Positions 1-4,927 of a stretch of 5,243 bases of DNA are shown in pieces (position 1 is the first letter of the stretch; every line of letters begins with the position of its first letter). Position numbers and translations under genes: made by a program. The DNA lies in contig JALGZO010000616.1 of the NCBI GenBank assembly GCA_025774865.1, positions 1 to 5,243 of the forward strand, given 5' to 3'. The notes below the pieces were generated by a model, which had not been told where the DNA came from, ran no database searches, and worked only from the letters and a program-made list of their open reading frames with translations. Origin of the DNA: a bacterium. GTDB lineage: Bacteria; ARS69.

Positions 1-2613
1 GCGAAACAGGTCGCCGCCCGGATCCGGCAAGAGAACGGCTCGCACATCGGGGTGCTCGGCGTGCGGACCCTGAGGCCGTTCCCCGCGGAGGCCGTCGGAG
101 AGGTCCTGAAGGGGAAGCGACGAATTCTGGTCCTCGAACGGGCGGACGCGCCGCTCGCCGGGGAACCGCCGCTCACCCGCGAGATCCGGGCGGCGCTGAC
201 GAGAGCCCCGGCCGGTCGGCCAGCCCGTCCCTCGCGCATCGTGACCGTGATCGCGGGGGCCGGCGGCCTCCCCGTGATCGAAGACGACCTTCGATCGCTG
301 TGCCTCGATCCTCTCGAAGAAGCGGATCGCCTCCTGTACCTGGGGCTCGAGTTCCTTCCCGACGATCCGGACCACCCGAAGCGGCAGGCATTTCACGACC
401 AGCTCGGTCGCCAGTACCCCGAGATCCGGTCGCTCGGCCGCCGCGGCGAGAGGACGAAGGGAGACGCCTCGACGGAAGACCCGTCGATCCCGCCGGCGGT
501 GCGGAACCTCGGCCGGGGTGGCCCCGACTGGTGCAGCCTGCCCCGATTCTGGGATCAGGTGGGTATCCTCTACCACGAGGACCGGGCCACGGAGCTCTCG
601 CCCGACCCTCACCTCGCTCTCGGAGCAATCCCTCCCCTCTCGTCGAGTCTTCGCGATCGATCGAAGCTGGACGCCGGCTGGCCGTCGCTCGACCCGACAC
701 TCTGCACGGGGTGCGGACTCTGTTGGACGCTCTGTCCCGACGGCGCGATCGCGGCCGCGGCGCTCGGAGTCCGCGAGCTCCTCGACGCGGGACTCGAGAC
801 GGCGCGGGCACGGGGGAAGGCGCCCGACGTGCTTCGTTCCGTGCTCGCCCCGTTGGCATCGAAAGCGGAGGCTCGCATACGCGCAGCGGCGCCGGCCGTG
901 TTCGCGGACGCCGTGCGACCGGCCCTGGAGGAGGTGCTCGCGAAGTCGAACCCTCCCGCGGATCGCCGCGCGGCGCTGGCCGCCGCGCTCGACGCCGTCT
1001 TGGAGGAGGTCGGTGAGCTGCCGGTGTCTCGCACGGCTTCTCTCTTCGACGAAGCCCCGAAGGGCAAGGGGGCTCTGCTCGCCCTCGGCATCGATCCGAC
1101 GATGTGCCAGACCTGCGGAGTGTGCATCGAGGCCTGCGAGCCGGCCGCCCTCACCGACGGTGAGGCTTCCGCGGACCGCCGGCGGCGCGATCTCGGGATT
1201 CATGGCGGCGTCAGACAACTGCCGGCGCCGTCGGCCGCGACACTCGATCGGATCCGCGAGCCCGCTGGTTTGGCGGCCGCGCTCCTCCTCGGGCCCGAGA
1301 ACCGTTCCGCGATGAGCGGCGGCGATCACGCCGAACCGGCGAGCGGCGCGCGGCTCGCGCTGCGTCTCGTGCTCGCGGCCACGGTGTCGCACCTCGCGCC
1401 CCGACTGGCCGCGTTCATGGGCGAGCTCGACGAGCTCCGGGCCAAGTTCGCCGAGGAGATCCGGAGCGGCATGTTGGACGCGATCCCCACGAACGACCTC
1501 GATGCCATCGCGCAGGGGCTGCGCGTTCTCGGCGGTCCCGACGTGGATGTCGCCGAGCTGATCAAGCGTGTCGAGGACGCGTGCGACTCCGACCGCATCG
1601 ATGCCGAGCGGCTCTCCGCGCTCGTGGACGCAGCGAAGGACGTCGCCAACCTGCGTGACGCGTGCGCGCGCACGGCCTCGCCCCCCGTGCCACCTCCGCT
1701 CGTGCTCGCCGGCGAATCGCTCGAGTGGGCCGCGACGTTCCCGGACAACCCGTTCGCCGGACCCGTCGTGGTCGACGCCGGGCGGTCGGCGGCTCGAGTC
1801 GCCCTCGGCCTGAGCGAGGGAACCATGCGCGACGTGGCTCGCGGCGCCGGCGTCGCGCGCCGGGCCCGCGCCGCGCTCGCCCAGCCACTGGCGCTCGCGG
1901 CGACGGAACCGCCGTCGTGGTCGGAGCTCGAAGACGCGGAGCGCGCGTGGGCGCCGCCGGTCACGCTCGTTCTGGATGCGGCCACCTGGGGTCGGCAAGA
2001 GCTTTCCGCGGTGGAGGCGCTGCTGGGATCGTCGCGGCCGGTCGTCGTGGTCGTGCTTTCCGACCGCCCGGTGCGGCCGTCGCCCGCGCTCCACGCGCTG
2101 GCCCGCCGCGACGTCTTCACGCTCCAATCGTCGATCGCGTTTCCGGATCACCTCGTGTCCGGCCTCGCCGATGCGCTCTCGAGAGTGGGCCCCGCGCTCG
2201 TACACGTCCTCGCACCGAGCCCGTCGGCGGCGGGGGTCGGGACGGAGCAGCTCATCGAACGGGCTCGGCAACCGGTCGAGGCACGTGCTTTCCCACTGTT
2301 CCGTTACGAGCCGCGGGAGGGCTCGATCGGCCGACTCTCCCTCGACGACAATCCCGAGATCCTGACGACCGAGGCGCGGTCCGAGGACCTCGCAGCGTGG
2401 GAAACGCTGACCGAGCTCGCAGGTATCGGCGGCCCCGGCGTGGAACATGCGCGGGAGGAGGGACGCACCGCCGAACGCGACGCGGCGCGCCGCGAGTGGG
2501 AGCCACGGATCGACGCCGCGGCGAGGGAAGCGCGCGAAGAGATGGAGCAACGCCTGACGAGTCAGCTGATGACACTGTCCGGGTGGGGCCCTCACGACGA
2601 GTCGACACCATGA
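1..2613 (+). CDS. PFOR/NifJ-like protein with degenerate TPP domain (partial, 5' end outside window)
   Basis: The frame is open from base 1 to the TGA at 2611-2613, giving 870 residues (numbered here from base 1). The GTG at 52 lies inside conserved PFOR domain II, so the true start is upstream. Domain order: residues 1-75 resemble domain II (LRPFPAE at 25-31, then VLERADAPLAGEPPL, like the family's VLDRTKEPG..GEPLY). Residues 107-234 are a short linker in place of domains III/IV. A ferredoxin module has cysteines 235/238/241/245 and 369/372/375/379, enough for two [4Fe-4S] clusters. Residues 439-790 are a remnant of domain VI, recognised by LEWAATFPDN (574-583) and PLFRYEP (765-771, like PLYRYDP). 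Residues 814-870 form a charged helical tail. The CxGCGE cysteines, the GDGWAYDIG and SNTGGQ TPP/Mg motifs and the last cluster cysteine (S740 here) are absent, so oxidation of a 2-oxoacid by this chain alone is unlikely. Family membership is fairly secure; an electron-transfer role beside Rnf is inferred. Confidence 0.8.
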   Translation, partial: AKQVAARIRQENGSHIGVLGVRTLRPFPAEAVGEVLKGKRRILVLERADAPLAGEPPLTREIRAALTRAPAGRPARPSRIVTVIAGAGGLPVIEDDLRSLCLDPLEEADRLLYLGLEFLPDDPDHPKRQAFHDQLGRQYPEIRSLGRRGERTKGDASTEDPSIPPAVRNLGRGGPDWCSLPRFWDQVGILYHEDRATELSPDPHLALGAIPPLSSSLRDRSKLDAGWPSLDPTLCTGCGLCWTLCPDGAIAAAALGVRELLDAGLETARARGKAPDVLRSVLAPLASKAEARIRAAAPAVFADAVRPALEEVLAKSNPPADRRAALAAALDAVLEEVGELPVSRTASLFDEAPKGKGALLALGIDPTMCQTCGVCIEACEPAALTDGEASADRRRRDLGIHGGVRQLPAPSAATLDRIREPAGLAAALLLGPENRSAMSGGDHAEPASGARLALRLVLAATVSHLAPRLAAFMGELDELRAKFAEEIRSGMLDAIPTNDLDAIAQGLRVLGGPDVDVAELIKRVEDACDSDRIDAERLSALVDAAKDVANLRDACARTASPPVPPPLVLAGESLEWAATFPDNPFAGPVVVDAGRSAARVALGLSEGTMRDVARGAGVARRARAALAQPLALAATEPPSWSELEDAERAWAPPVTLVLDAATWGRQELSAVEALLGSSRPVVVVVLSDRPVRPSPALHALARRDVFTLQSSIAFPDHLVSGLADALSRVGPALVHVLAPSPSAAGVGTEQLIERARQPVEARAFPLFRYEPREGSIGRLSLDDNPEILTTEARSEDLAAWETLTELAGIGGPGVEHAREEGRTAERDAARREWEPRIDAAAREAREEMEQRLTSQLMTLSGWGPHDESTP
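703..735 (+). other. First [4Fe-4S] ferredoxin motif of the PFOR-like protein
   Basis: Encodes CTGCGLCWTLC followed by P, the standard CxxCxxCxxxCP pattern (residues 235-245). By analogy with 2x[4Fe-4S] ferredoxin domains, the first three cysteines should bind one cluster and the fourth should pair with the second motif. It corresponds to the first half of PFOR domain V, and the preceding segment aligns with the family's domain IV-to-V junction. Confidence 0.88.
1105..1137 (+). other. Second [4Fe-4S] ferredoxin motif of the PFOR-like protein
   Basis: Encodes CQTCGVCIEAC followed by E (residues 369-379), the second CxxCxxCxxxC set. The usual proline after the last cysteine is glutamate here, but all four ligands are present. 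About 123 residues separate it from the first motif, against roughly 45-50 in canonical PFOR as I recall it. The extra length is an alanine-rich, probably helical insertion. Confidence 0.85.
2610..2613 (+). other. ATGA start/stop overlap between PFOR-like gene and rnfC
   Basis: The rnfC ATG (2610-2612) overlaps the PFOR-like TGA (2611-2613). Only a weak GACGAG (2596-2601) precedes it, so rnfC translation probably depends on ribosomes terminating the PFOR-like gene. This links the stoichiometry of the two products. Confidence 0.85.
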
Positions 2614-3926
2614 GGAGCTTCCGTCACGGCATACACCCGGAGGAGCACAAGGAAGCGACGGCGCACCTACCGATCGAACGGATGCCGTTCGTCGATCGTT
2701 ACGTCCTTCCGCTGAGCCAGCACACCGGGGCTCCGGCTCGCCCGATCGTGCAACGCGGTGACGCCGTGGAGCGCGGACAGCTCGTCGCGGAGCCCGTCGG
2801 ATTCGTCTCCACCGCGCTCGCGAGTCCCGTCACCGGGCGGATCGCCGCCATCGGCGCGCGCCGGCGCCCCGGCGGAGATCTCGGGGAAGCGATCGAGATC
2901 GAGGCCGATCCGTTCGCCACGCAGCGTTTCGAGTCGCAGGACCCCGTCGACGGGTCTGCCCTTTCGCTCGGAGAATTCGTCTCCGAGGTGCAGCGCGCCG
3001 GGCTCGTCGGCATGGGCGGCGCGGCGTTTCCGAGCCACGTGAAGTACGCGGTGCCGGAGGGGCGTCGCGTGCGGCGTCTCGTCATCAACGGCTGCGAGTG
3101 CGAGCCCTACCTCACTTGCGACCATCGCCTGATGGTCGAGCGCTCGGAAGCGGTGATCCGCGGAACCTCGATCCTCGCCGAGAAGCTGGAGGTCGAAGAG
3201 ATCGTGATCGGGGTCGAGGCGAACAAGCCGGACGCGATCGAGGCGCTCCGGGCCGTTTCGGCGAACGGTTACGACGTCCGCGTCGCGCCCCTCGAAGTGA
3301 AGTACCCGCAGGGCGCGGAGAAGATGCTCATCAAGGCGCTCTTTCGCGAGGAAGTCCCCGCGGGGAAGCTTCCACTCGACCTCGATATTCTCGTGAACAA
3401 CGTCGCGACGATGGCGGCGCTGGCCGACTGGTTCGATCGAAGACTGCCCCTGATCGAGAGAGTCGTCACGGTCGCCGGACCCGGCGTTCGTAGTCCATCC
3501 AATCTCCTGGTGCCAATCGGAACTCCTGTCCGCGACGTGCTCGATCACTGTGGCGTCGACGCCGAGACCAAAGAGATCGTCATGGGCGGACCGATGATGG
3601 GACAGCCACTCGCGTCGATCGACGTTCCGGTCCTCAAAGGGACGTCCGGCCTTCTCGTCTTCACGGAAGTGGCAACCGGACGGCCGAACGAATACACCTG
3701 TCTCAAATGCGGCCGCTGCCTGGAAGCGTGCTCCAATTTCCTGAATCCGTCGCGCCTCGCGCGGCTCGCCCGCGCCGAACGCTACGACGAGATGGAGCGT
3801 TCGTTCGCGCTCGATTGCATGGAATGCGGAGCGTGCTCCTACACGTGTCCCTCCAACATCCCGATCGTGCAGCTCATCCGCGCCGCCAAGACGGAAATCC
3901 GCCGACGCAAGGCCCCCCGCCCATGA
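2610..3926 (+). CDS. rnfC: Rnf electron transport complex subunit C (RnfC/RsxC)
   Basis: 438 residues. RnfC is the peripheral cytoplasmic subunit of the ion-translocating ferredoxin:NAD+ oxidoreductase, carrying the NAD(H)/FMN site and two [4Fe-4S] clusters. The N-terminal barrel-sandwich region has GIHPEEHKEAT, VLPLSQHTGAP and ASPVTGRI. The nucleotide/FMN fold follows with GMGGAAFP (134-141) and NGCECEPYLTCDHR (160-173), then YPQGAEKMLI. An SLBB-type domain has VTVAGPGV, VPIGTPV and MGGPMMG, followed by VLKGTSGLLVF. The ferredoxin domain has cysteines 364/367/370/374 and 403/406/409/413, the latter in CMECGACSYTCPSNIP. The length matches compact clostridial-type RnfC and lacks the long repeat-rich C-terminal extension of enterobacterial RsxC. 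The ATG at 2610 overlaps the upstream stop (ATGA) and places the family N terminus exactly. The ribosome-binding site is weak, so translational coupling is likely. Identity is nearly certain. Confidence 0.97.
   Translation: MRSFRHGIHPEEHKEATAHLPIERMPFVDRYVLPLSQHTGAPARPIVQRGDAVERGQLVAEPVGFVSTALASPVTGRIAAIGARRRPGGDLGEAIEIEADPFATQRFESQDPVDGSALSLGEFVSEVQRAGLVGMGGAAFPSHVKYAVPEGRRVRRLVINGCECEPYLTCDHRLMVERSEAVIRGTSILAEKLEVEEIVIGVEANKPDAIEALRAVSANGYDVRVAPLEVKYPQGAEKMLIKALFREEVPAGKLPLDLDILVNNVATMAALADWFDRRLPLIERVVTVAGPGVRSPSNLLVPIGTPVRDVLDHCGVDAETKEIVMGGPMMGQPLASIDVPVLKGTSGLLVFTEVATGRPNEYTCLKCGRCLEACSNFLNPSRLARLARAERYDEMERSFALDCMECGACSYTCPSNIPIVQLIRAAKTEIRRRKAPRP
3923..3926 (+). other. ATGA start/stop overlap between rnfC and rnfD
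   Basis: The rnfD ATG (3923-3925) overlaps the rnfC TGA (3924-3926), a typical translational-coupling junction for subunits of one complex. A CAAGG at 3908-3912 is a possible weak ribosome-binding site. Confidence 0.85.
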
Positions 3927-4927
3927 GCTCGAGACCGTTGCTCGTCCAGCCGGCCCCGTTCCTCCGGCGGCCGCTGACCACGCCGGTCCTGATGCGCGAC
4001 GTGCTGCTCGCTCTCGTGCCCGTGCTCGGCGCCGCCGTTTGGTATTTCGGCGCGAGCGCACTGCTCGTCGTGGGGGCGGCGGTTGCGGGAGCCTGTGGCA
4101 CGGAGTGGGCACTCGGGCCGGGCGGCCGACGCGGAACGTCGCTCGCGGACGGCAGCGCGATCCTCACCGGCGTTCTGCTCGGACTCACGCTGCCACCGGG
4201 GCTTCCCCTCTGGATGGCGTTCGTGGGAGGAGTCGTCGCGATCGGTCTCGGAAAGGCAGTGTGGGGAGGTCTCGGCCACAATCTCTTCAATCCCGCCCTC
4301 GTGGGGCGCGCGTTTCTTCAGGCGGCATTCCCCACGGCCCTGACGACCTGGACCACTCCCGGTGGCGCTTCTCTGTGGCTGAGGGGCTCGAATCTCGCGC
4401 TTCCGTTTCTGCGCTCGGACGTAGACGCCGTCTCGGTCGCCACGCCGCTCGCGCTGGCCAAGTTCCAGGGCGAGTCGACACCGTTCGCTTCGCTCCTCGC
4501 GGGGAGCACGTCCGGGTCACTGGGGGAGACGAGCGCGGCACTCCTGATTCTCTGCGGTCTCGTGCTCGGCCTGAGACGTTCGTTCGACTGGCGCATTCCC
4601 GTTGCGTTGCTCGCCGCGGTCGCCGTGTTCGCGGGGGTGTTGCACTGGGTCGATCCGGGCCGTTATCCGGCCCCCGTCTTCCACCTCCTGTCCGGTGGTC
4701 TTCTCTTCGGGACCGTCTTCATGGCGACCGACCCGGTCACCTCGCCGGTCGCACCGAAAGCAGCCTGGGTGTTCGGGGCCGGCGTCGGGCTTCTCGTGGT
4801 GTTGATCCGCACCTTCGGAGGGCTGCCGGAGGGTGTGATGTACTCGATCCTCCTCATGAACGCCGCGTCCCCGTTGATCGAGAAGCAGATGCAGCCGCGC
4901 GTGTTCGGTCGGAAGGCCGTTTCGTGA
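3923..4927 (+). CDS. rnfD: Rnf electron transport complex subunit D (RnfD/RsxD)
   Basis: 334 residues, strongly hydrophobic with multiple membrane segments (for example about 28-58, 77-112, 204-216, 226-242, 254-268 and 281-298). RnfD is the NqrB-like integral membrane subunit of Rnf that carries covalent FMN and takes part in ion-coupled electron transfer. Family signatures are DGSAILTGVLLGLTLPP (76-92), GGLGHNLFNPALVGRAFLQ (115-133), SVATPLA (171-177), GETSA (201-205), TDPVTSPVAPK (269-279) and IRTFGGLPEGVMYSILLMNA (295-314). T174 in SVATPLA sits where the FMN-accepting threonine of RnfD/NqrB is found. The ATG at 3923 overlaps the rnfC stop (ATGA). An AAGG-type site about 10 bases upstream and the match to the short cytoplasmic N terminus of RnfD support it. 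NqrB is the alternative, but the length and the rnfC neighbour favour RnfD. Confidence 0.96.
   Translation: MSSRPLLVQPAPFLRRPLTTPVLMRDVLLALVPVLGAAVWYFGASALLVVGAAVAGACGTEWALGPGGRRGTSLADGSAILTGVLLGLTLPPGLPLWMAFVGGVVAIGLGKAVWGGLGHNLFNPALVGRAFLQAAFPTALTTWTTPGGASLWLRGSNLALPFLRSDVDAVSVATPLALAKFQGESTPFASLLAGSTSGSLGETSAALLILCGLVLGLRRSFDWRIPVALLAAVAVFAGVLHWVDPGRYPAPVFHLLSGGLLFGTVFMATDPVTSPVAPKAAWVFGAGVGLLVVLIRTFGGLPEGVMYSILLMNAASPLIEKQMQPRVFGRKAVS
4911..4916 (+). promoter_or_regulatory. Ribosome-binding site for rnfG
   Basis: GGAAGG lies inside the 3' end of rnfD, 7 bases before the GTG at 4924. It supports that non-ATG start over the in-frame GTG at 4954. It is the clearest Shine-Dalgarno-like sequence at the three gene junctions. 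Confidence 0.6.
4924..4927 (+). other. GTGA start/stop overlap between rnfD and rnfG
   Basis: The rnfG GTG (4924-4926) overlaps the rnfD TGA (4925-4927). It repeats the 4-bp overlap seen at the two upstream junctions and keeps the operon without intergenic space. Confidence 0.8.

Follow-up and report, generated by a model that had tools for sequence, protein, structure and literature searches.

The rnf locus and its PFOR-like gene

The stretch of DNA analysed here (the window, 5,243 bp) is an entire contig, G000:C620, of a metagenome-assembled genome (MAG), G000, which consists of 785 contigs and is 93% complete with 8.3% contamination. It carries the 3' part of a gene related to pyruvate:ferredoxin oxidoreductase (PFOR), whose product we call B, followed by rnfC, rnfD and the start of rnfG (Table 1). 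The usual view is that Rnf exchanges electrons with ferredoxin that diffuses freely. An earlier note on this DNA had assigned the PFOR-like gene to the rnf operon, pointing to an ATGA overlap with rnfC like that between rnfC and rnfD. Both overlaps are confirmed, the second at 3923-3926, and rnfD and rnfG also overlap by four bases (GTGA, 4924-4927). The four-base overlap of B and rnfC recurs in L095, L100, L114, L116 and L139. The window copy is the only rnfC over the cut-off in G000.

Frame length alone is little proof for B, because an antisense open frame of 865 aa, a by-product of high G+C, covers the same region (window 1-2595, minus strand). B is accepted as a real gene on homology, that is, on its identity to relatives (40-41% to G001 and 40% to a planctomycete) and on the dN/dS values given below. 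As the gene is truncated at the contig edge, the window allows no judgement on its missing N-terminus.

The window protein descends from the PFOR superfamily (profile comparison with PFOR of the Protein Data Bank, E 2.8e-55). It shares with the PFORs of Moorella (6cin/6cio) and Desulfovibrio africanus (1b0p/2c3y) the fold, the domain order II-V-VI and two ferredoxin-type 4Fe-4S clusters. The earlier note had described an intact two-cluster ferredoxin domain beside a lacking thiamine pyrophosphate (TPP) site, and this description holds: all eight cysteines of the dicluster domain are present, whereas the TPP/Mg motif GDG...N is absent, with LDAATWGRQE in its place and the SNTGGQ segment just after it deleted in the alignment. 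B further differs from the solved PFORs in having none of the four proximal 4Fe-4S cluster cysteines in domain VI, in lacking the gamma (POR) domain (8 residues where PFOR has ~195, and no PF01558 match in the Pfam scan of window B), in its insert between the two cluster motifs, and in lying inside an rnf operon. The predicted model of window B (predicted local distance difference test, pLDDT, 83; predicted template-modelling score 0.78) has PFOR as its best solved-structure match, with Z 37.4 (532 residues; positions 1-808 of the model align with PFOR 281-1170), and the oxalate oxidoreductase beta subunit as its second (Z 23). By this model the PFOR fold is kept and the active site is gone. 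Every giant PFOR of this group has the ~123-aa insert, whether it is linked to Rnf or not. Use of the insert as an Rnf-docking element is unsupported, as non-Rnf giants carry it too.

Table 1. Features of the window (positions in nucleotides of the window; aa, residues of the visible B protein)
Feature	Position	Strand	Remarks
PFOR-derived pseudoenzyme B	1..2613	+	one open frame, 870 aa visible, 5' end cut by contig edge
PFOR domain II, C-terminal part	1..267	+	PF17147, E 4.8e-12, aa 2-89
4Fe-4S motif I CTGCGLCWTLC, complete	703..735	+	aa 235-245; cysteines among (near-)invariant columns of 34 B-family proteins
Helical insert, ~123 aa, between the two cluster motifs of B	736..1104	+	
4Fe-4S motif II CQTCGVCIEAC, complete	1105..1137	+	aa 369-379; profile match and alignment
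Degenerate PFOR domain VI (TPP domain) of B	1288..2355	+	fold kept (predicted), proximal-cluster cysteines lost
LDAATWGRQE replacing TPP/Mg motif GGDGAMYDIG	1972..2001	+	aligned with intact relatives
Long C-terminal helix of B (predicted)	2440..2577	+	aa 814-859; counterpart of the long helix before the tether in protein A
ATGA stop/start overlap B/rnfC	2610..2613	+	B TGA 2611-2613, rnfC ATG 2610-2612
rnfC, 438 aa, ordinary	2610..3926	+	TIGR01945, 506 bits, far over cut-off
rnfD, 334 aa	3923..4927	+	TIGR01946, 305 bits, far over cut-off
rnfG, 5' part, cut by contig end	4924..5243	+	rnfG models, E 1.7e-7 and 2.1e-4, partial

Gene order and distribution of the operon

Contig C540 (L039) of the same MAG carries the alpha and beta subunits of a 2-oxoacid oxidoreductase (KorA and KorB), a protein that we call A (726 aa), rnfB and the start of another gene. 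The gamma and alpha domains are fused in this KorA, and the TPP motif of KorB is intact (GDGDCCSIG). The last gene runs off the contig end after its first 159 aa. This fragment belongs to the part of B that C620 lacks and is 47% identical to the start of B in G002 and 42% to that in L098. The window itself lacks domain I, and in this presumed N-terminus of B the ITPS and EGEH motifs are not recognisable. The rnfB gene of C540 is the best rnfB match in G000, and a second possible rnfB-like frame lies on C677. We infer the order korA-korB-A-rnfB-B-rnfC-rnfD-rnfG in G000, spanning C540 and C620. Judged from its sequence, KorAB of the operon is apparently an active 2-oxoacid oxidoreductase. KorA is over the TIGR03710 cut-off (495 bits); KorB is below that of PorB_KorB (236 vs 261.9 bits), and its TPP_enzyme_C domain is over the Pfam cut-off. 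KorAB reached no substrate-specific equivalog cut-off.

We surveyed 386 genomes, mostly of different families. The B-core profile matched 34 of them, and in 17 a B-like gene lies inside an rnf cluster, in most cases as rnfB-B-rnfC (some are cut by contig ends). With rnfC over the cut-off in 168 of the surveyed genomes (17/168 with B in the cluster), the arrangement is a minority one but broad. The full run A-rnfB-B-rnfC-D-G-E-A, in which the last A is rnfA, is present in G057, a member of a different family. In a second scan, the ferredoxin domain at the C-terminus of A, which is conserved, served as query against GTDB genomes and gave at least 535 relatives. The named loci are the best 80 of these and, being picked through the ferredoxin domain, are not a random sample. 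Among the 80 loci, rnfB and B occur together in 49, and korB, A, rnfB and B together in 38. The operon order korA-korB-A-rnfB-B-rnfC-D-G-E-A was found in about a dozen named phyla; named loci with rnfB and B come from Pseudomonadota, Planctomycetota, Myxococcota, Bacteroidota, Gemmatimonadota, Acidobacteriota, Calditrichota, Eiseniibacteriota, Bdellovibrionota, Latescibacterota, KSB1 and Rhodothermota. The pairing is thus not confined to a single genome. Chance adjacency to an ordinary PFOR operon, the other doubt that the earlier note had raised about its own proposal, is ruled out by the conservation of rnfB-B-rnfC across the 46 B proteins without an active site (the dead set, see below). 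The L101 record, labelled Acidobacteriota (Polarisedimenticolaceae), has an operon nearly identical to that of the gammaproteobacterial L115, through either mis-binning or recent transfer.

Loss of the active site in B and the tethered ferredoxin of A

The gene at this place does not always lack a TPP site, a point that the earlier note had left to a survey. An apparently intact giant PFOR of 1,500-1,900 aa, with TPP motif and proximal-cluster cysteines, sits between rnfB and rnfC in several lineages (G002, G004, G280, G224, G061, L127, L137, L156, L165 and L168), and its domain I motifs are intact wherever the N-terminus is complete. Since this form occupies the same place in several lineages, the dead form is the derived one. 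In the tree, a well-supported clade of 44 members holds nearly all dead forms, window B included, and the dead B of G121 and of G192 are nested among intact forms. Together with the main clade this makes about three losses, although the fine placement is unsure because several branches are very long.

The loss was selective. The ferredoxin cysteines of the 46 dead B proteins are kept in 354 of 368 cells, and 42 proteins have all eight; for the proximal cluster the figure is 9 of 184 cells, with all four in two proteins (G121 and G192) and GDG in two. The intact proteins (n=17) have kept everything, that is, GDG and both cysteine sets. Seven of the eight ferredoxin cysteines are invariant in an alignment of 34 B proteins and the eighth is near-invariant; Fe-S cysteines dominate the invariant columns in both the A and B families. 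This pattern of retention is what an electron-transfer role predicts. Five pairs of B relatives gave dN/dS of ~0.08-0.27 (Nei-Gojobori; dS near saturation in most), which places B under purifying selection. Because the window gene runs off the end of its contig and the MAG is fragmented, a degenerating pseudogene or an assembly artefact could be suspected, but for the family this explanation is refuted by dN/dS far below 1 and by relatives with 1,100-1,600 intact codons in dozens of genomes, and we give it practically no weight.

Profile comparison shows protein A to be a homologue of B's C-terminal half from which the dicluster has been cut out (E 2e-104). Neither A nor mini-A matched an NCBIfam family, and Pfam sees in A only a single-cluster ferredoxin domain, at the C-terminus, whose four cysteines are invariant in 31 proteins. 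A lacks the TPP/Mg motif, the substrate-side E/ITPS motifs and the proximal-cluster cysteines. Its predicted model (pLDDT 84.6) matches PFOR domain VI (Z 23); at its end come a long helix, a stretch predicted to be disordered (690-735, pLDDT ~38-46) and a ferredoxin-I-like domain (pLDDT ~90) with a root-mean-square deviation of 1.5 Å to D. africanus ferredoxin I (1fxr). The tether is rich in Ala, Pro and Glu in 31 of 31 proteins, with a median of 89% small or polar residues. At the 6 loci examined with intact B, the tethered ferredoxin domain is on B itself; at 36 loci with dead B it is absent from B, and A lies upstream in 35 of them. The tethered ferredoxin thus persists while its carrier changes, being mostly on the PFOR in intact-PFOR operons, which have no full-length A adjacent, and on A in dead-B operons. 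G192 and G121 are intermediates that retain it on B. The intact-PFOR operon of L137 has between korB and rnfB a 343-aa protein without family match (L137:3196-4227), possibly a short relative of A.

One could suppose that B is still an enzyme, with an active site completed by A or KorAB or with another cofactor or substrate. The retained PFOR fold, including domain VI, and the strong selection on B would agree with this. However, the TPP/Mg motif, the substrate-side E/ITPS motifs and all proximal-cluster cysteines were lost together in the main clade, A lacks the same motifs, and the KorAB of the operon is intact. We therefore regard a catalytic B as very improbable.

Intact giant PFORs with the same insert also form a sister group (G029, G083, G113, G121:C180, G224:C17 and G351; L035, L088-L092), and no rnf genes were found near them in the stretches read. 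In G002, contigs C188 (L045) and C267 (L033) seem to carry an intact-PFOR rnf operon plus one of the dead korAB-A-rnfB-B type. Contamination is possible there, because only one rnfC was found.

A proposed electron-transfer module between KorAB and Rnf

We consider it probable that B is an inactivated PFOR that turned into an accessory subunit of a specialised Rnf for electron transfer and docking, and that A and B form a non-catalytic module between KorAB and Rnf. Gene order, the pattern of loss, cysteine retention, the homology of A and B and purifying selection are read from the sequences themselves, and the specific position of B between rnfB and rnfC in distant lineages supports this interpretation. 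The earlier note had proposed a PFOR-derived electron-input component of Rnf. This stands in outline, except that B would not act alone, as A and KorAB belong to the operon. It had also offered two alternatives, an electron adaptor or a tether for an active oxidoreductase. Both are probably true, because A and an apparently active KorAB share the operon.

In the mechanism that we propose, a giant PFOR that carried a ferredoxin of its own on a flexible tether apparently entered an ancestral rnf operon, giving rnfB-PFOR-rnfC. In the main derived clade this PFOR would have been replaced by two dead derivatives: A, consisting of the domain VI core and the tethered ferredoxin-I-like domain without the dicluster, and B, consisting of domains I, II, V (two 4Fe-4S clusters) and VI. 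Catalysis would have been handed to the KorAB encoded upstream. A and B would pair as a dead heterodimer that takes the place of the PFOR homodimer and is held at RnfB, and KorAB would dock onto this heterodimer. Electrons would pass from the KorB cluster to A's swinging ferredoxin, B's dicluster or both, and on through RnfB and the membrane chain to RnfC and NAD+. In the reverse direction, the ion gradient would drive electrons back and power reductive carboxylation. In the Acetobacterium woodii Rnf structure ferredoxin is thought to dock on RnfB, with electrons crossing the membrane to RnfC (PMC11889175), and Rnf runs both ways (PMC11889175, PMC12174285). More tentatively, and with slightly more doubt than belief, we suggest a widespread 2-oxoglutarate:NAD+ respiratory supercomplex in which KorAB is wired to Rnf via the pseudo-PFOR pair and the swinging ferredoxin, making a step of the tricarboxylic acid (TCA) cycle ion-pumping, or ion-driven in reverse, without free ferredoxin.

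Several observations weigh against an electron-transfer module of this kind. Ferredoxin cysteines were lost in four of the 46 dead B proteins (L100, L139, G197 and G244, L084:8083-12723, with most lost in G244) and the genes are still in place, so that not every B transfers electrons, and a structural function may be enough. The E1 component of 2-oxoglutarate dehydrogenase is still present in 13 of the 17 B genomes, including G000. In G108 (L083), unrelated genes at 6019-7809 and 12386-16297 split the rnfB-B-rnfC run, and A stands alone, with no kor or rnf genes nearby, in the sulfur bacteria L099, L103, L107 and L128. The C540-C620 join is itself inferred, with ~120 codons missing, in a MAG with the contamination given above. 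The genes that split the G108 run are a putative transporter, an ATP-grasp-like gene and a DNA methylase-like gene that may have a restriction partner; the lone-A records are of Thiomargarita, Thiotrichaceae, Halobeggiatoa and Thiocystis.

The four proteins with lost cysteines, which retain gene and place, would also fit a B that (with A) is a purely structural scaffold anchoring KorAB or free ferredoxin near Rnf, with its clusters as relics. Yet 42 of 46 proteins keep all eight cysteines while the neighbouring catalytic ones are gone, and the ferredoxin cysteines are the most conserved residues of the B family. A pure scaffold thus seems unlikely. Similarly, the loci where korAB-A stand apart from rnf, and the lone A of Thiocystis and Beggiatoaceae, would be expected if the oxoacid oxidoreductase and Rnf merely shared a regulon and A and B interacted with KorAB and not with Rnf. 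This does not account for the specific lodging of B between rnfB and rnfC, which recurs across phyla and often involves overlapping genes, or for inactivations that apparently arose independently at one and the same place (G121, G192 and the main clade), and we find co-transcription alone improbable.

The KorAB substrate is probably 2-oxoglutarate, most firmly where sucC-sucD, recognised from sequence as a succinyl-CoA synthetase pair, adjoins B in the operon. The pair lies directly downstream of B, mostly just before rnfC, in L101, L115, L119, L122, L126, L131, L148 and L172; these loci are gammaproteobacterial apart from one labelled acidobacterial. We rejected Kor-Rnf as a general replacement of 2-oxoglutarate dehydrogenase because of the E1 genes mentioned above. 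Given these, the module may serve oxidation at low O2 with energy conservation, or reductive carboxylation by reversed Rnf. Publications on tubeworm symbionts describe a dimeric korAB next to TCA genes for that of Escarpia laminata, and korAB and 'PFOR-like' transcripts that co-vary for that of Riftia (PMC6315080, PMC11636981). L172 is an E. laminata symbiont record, and the operon could explain these unassigned tubeworm-symbiont genes, which may be the same.

The rnfC, rnfD and rnfG genes (and rnfB, rnfE and rnfA in relatives) are ordinary, as in the six-subunit Rnf of A. woodii (PMC11889175) and Clostridium tetanomorphum (PMC9588780). The operon here adds two PFOR-derived proteins and KorAB, whereas the described complexes use free ferredoxin. 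An additional cytoplasmic subunit is known in RnfH of Azotobacter vinelandii Rnf1 (PMC12174285, a 2025 Rnf/Nqr review). RnfH resembles A and B in being an extra cytoplasmic Rnf component but has no redox cofactor, while B and A carry 4Fe-4S motifs and are PFOR-derived. A term search of the same review (PMC12174285) found no link of an oxoacid oxidoreductase to Rnf, and we found no description of PFOR-derived proteins as Rnf components in the main texts of the open-licence literature. The KorAB-A/B-Rnf arrangement appears to be undescribed. KorAB itself belongs to the 2-oxoacid oxidoreductase superfamily, differing in that its ferredoxin partner would be tethered on A. The B family would document in extant proteins the passage from an active enzyme to a dead redox subunit, a parallel to NuoG of complex I, which was once a metabolic enzyme, lost the active site but kept its Fe-S clusters, and became an electron-input subunit of an ion pump; NuoG, however, is of an unrelated family (molybdopterin oxidoreductase). 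If our interpretation is true, many phyla, with sulfur-oxidising symbionts among them, feed a step of central carbon metabolism straight into an ion pump, which has a bearing on how microaerobic bacteria power the carboxylations of the reverse TCA cycle.

An apparent extra rnfC upstream of korA in gammaproteobacteria was rejected, as it is actually NuoF-like. In L115, the only locus scanned for it, the gene (L115:3311-4558) is below the NuoF cut-off, and rnfC-like matches lie at the same place in L101, L105, L117, L126, L134, L148, L172 and L174. This gene could provide the same system with an additional NADH module.

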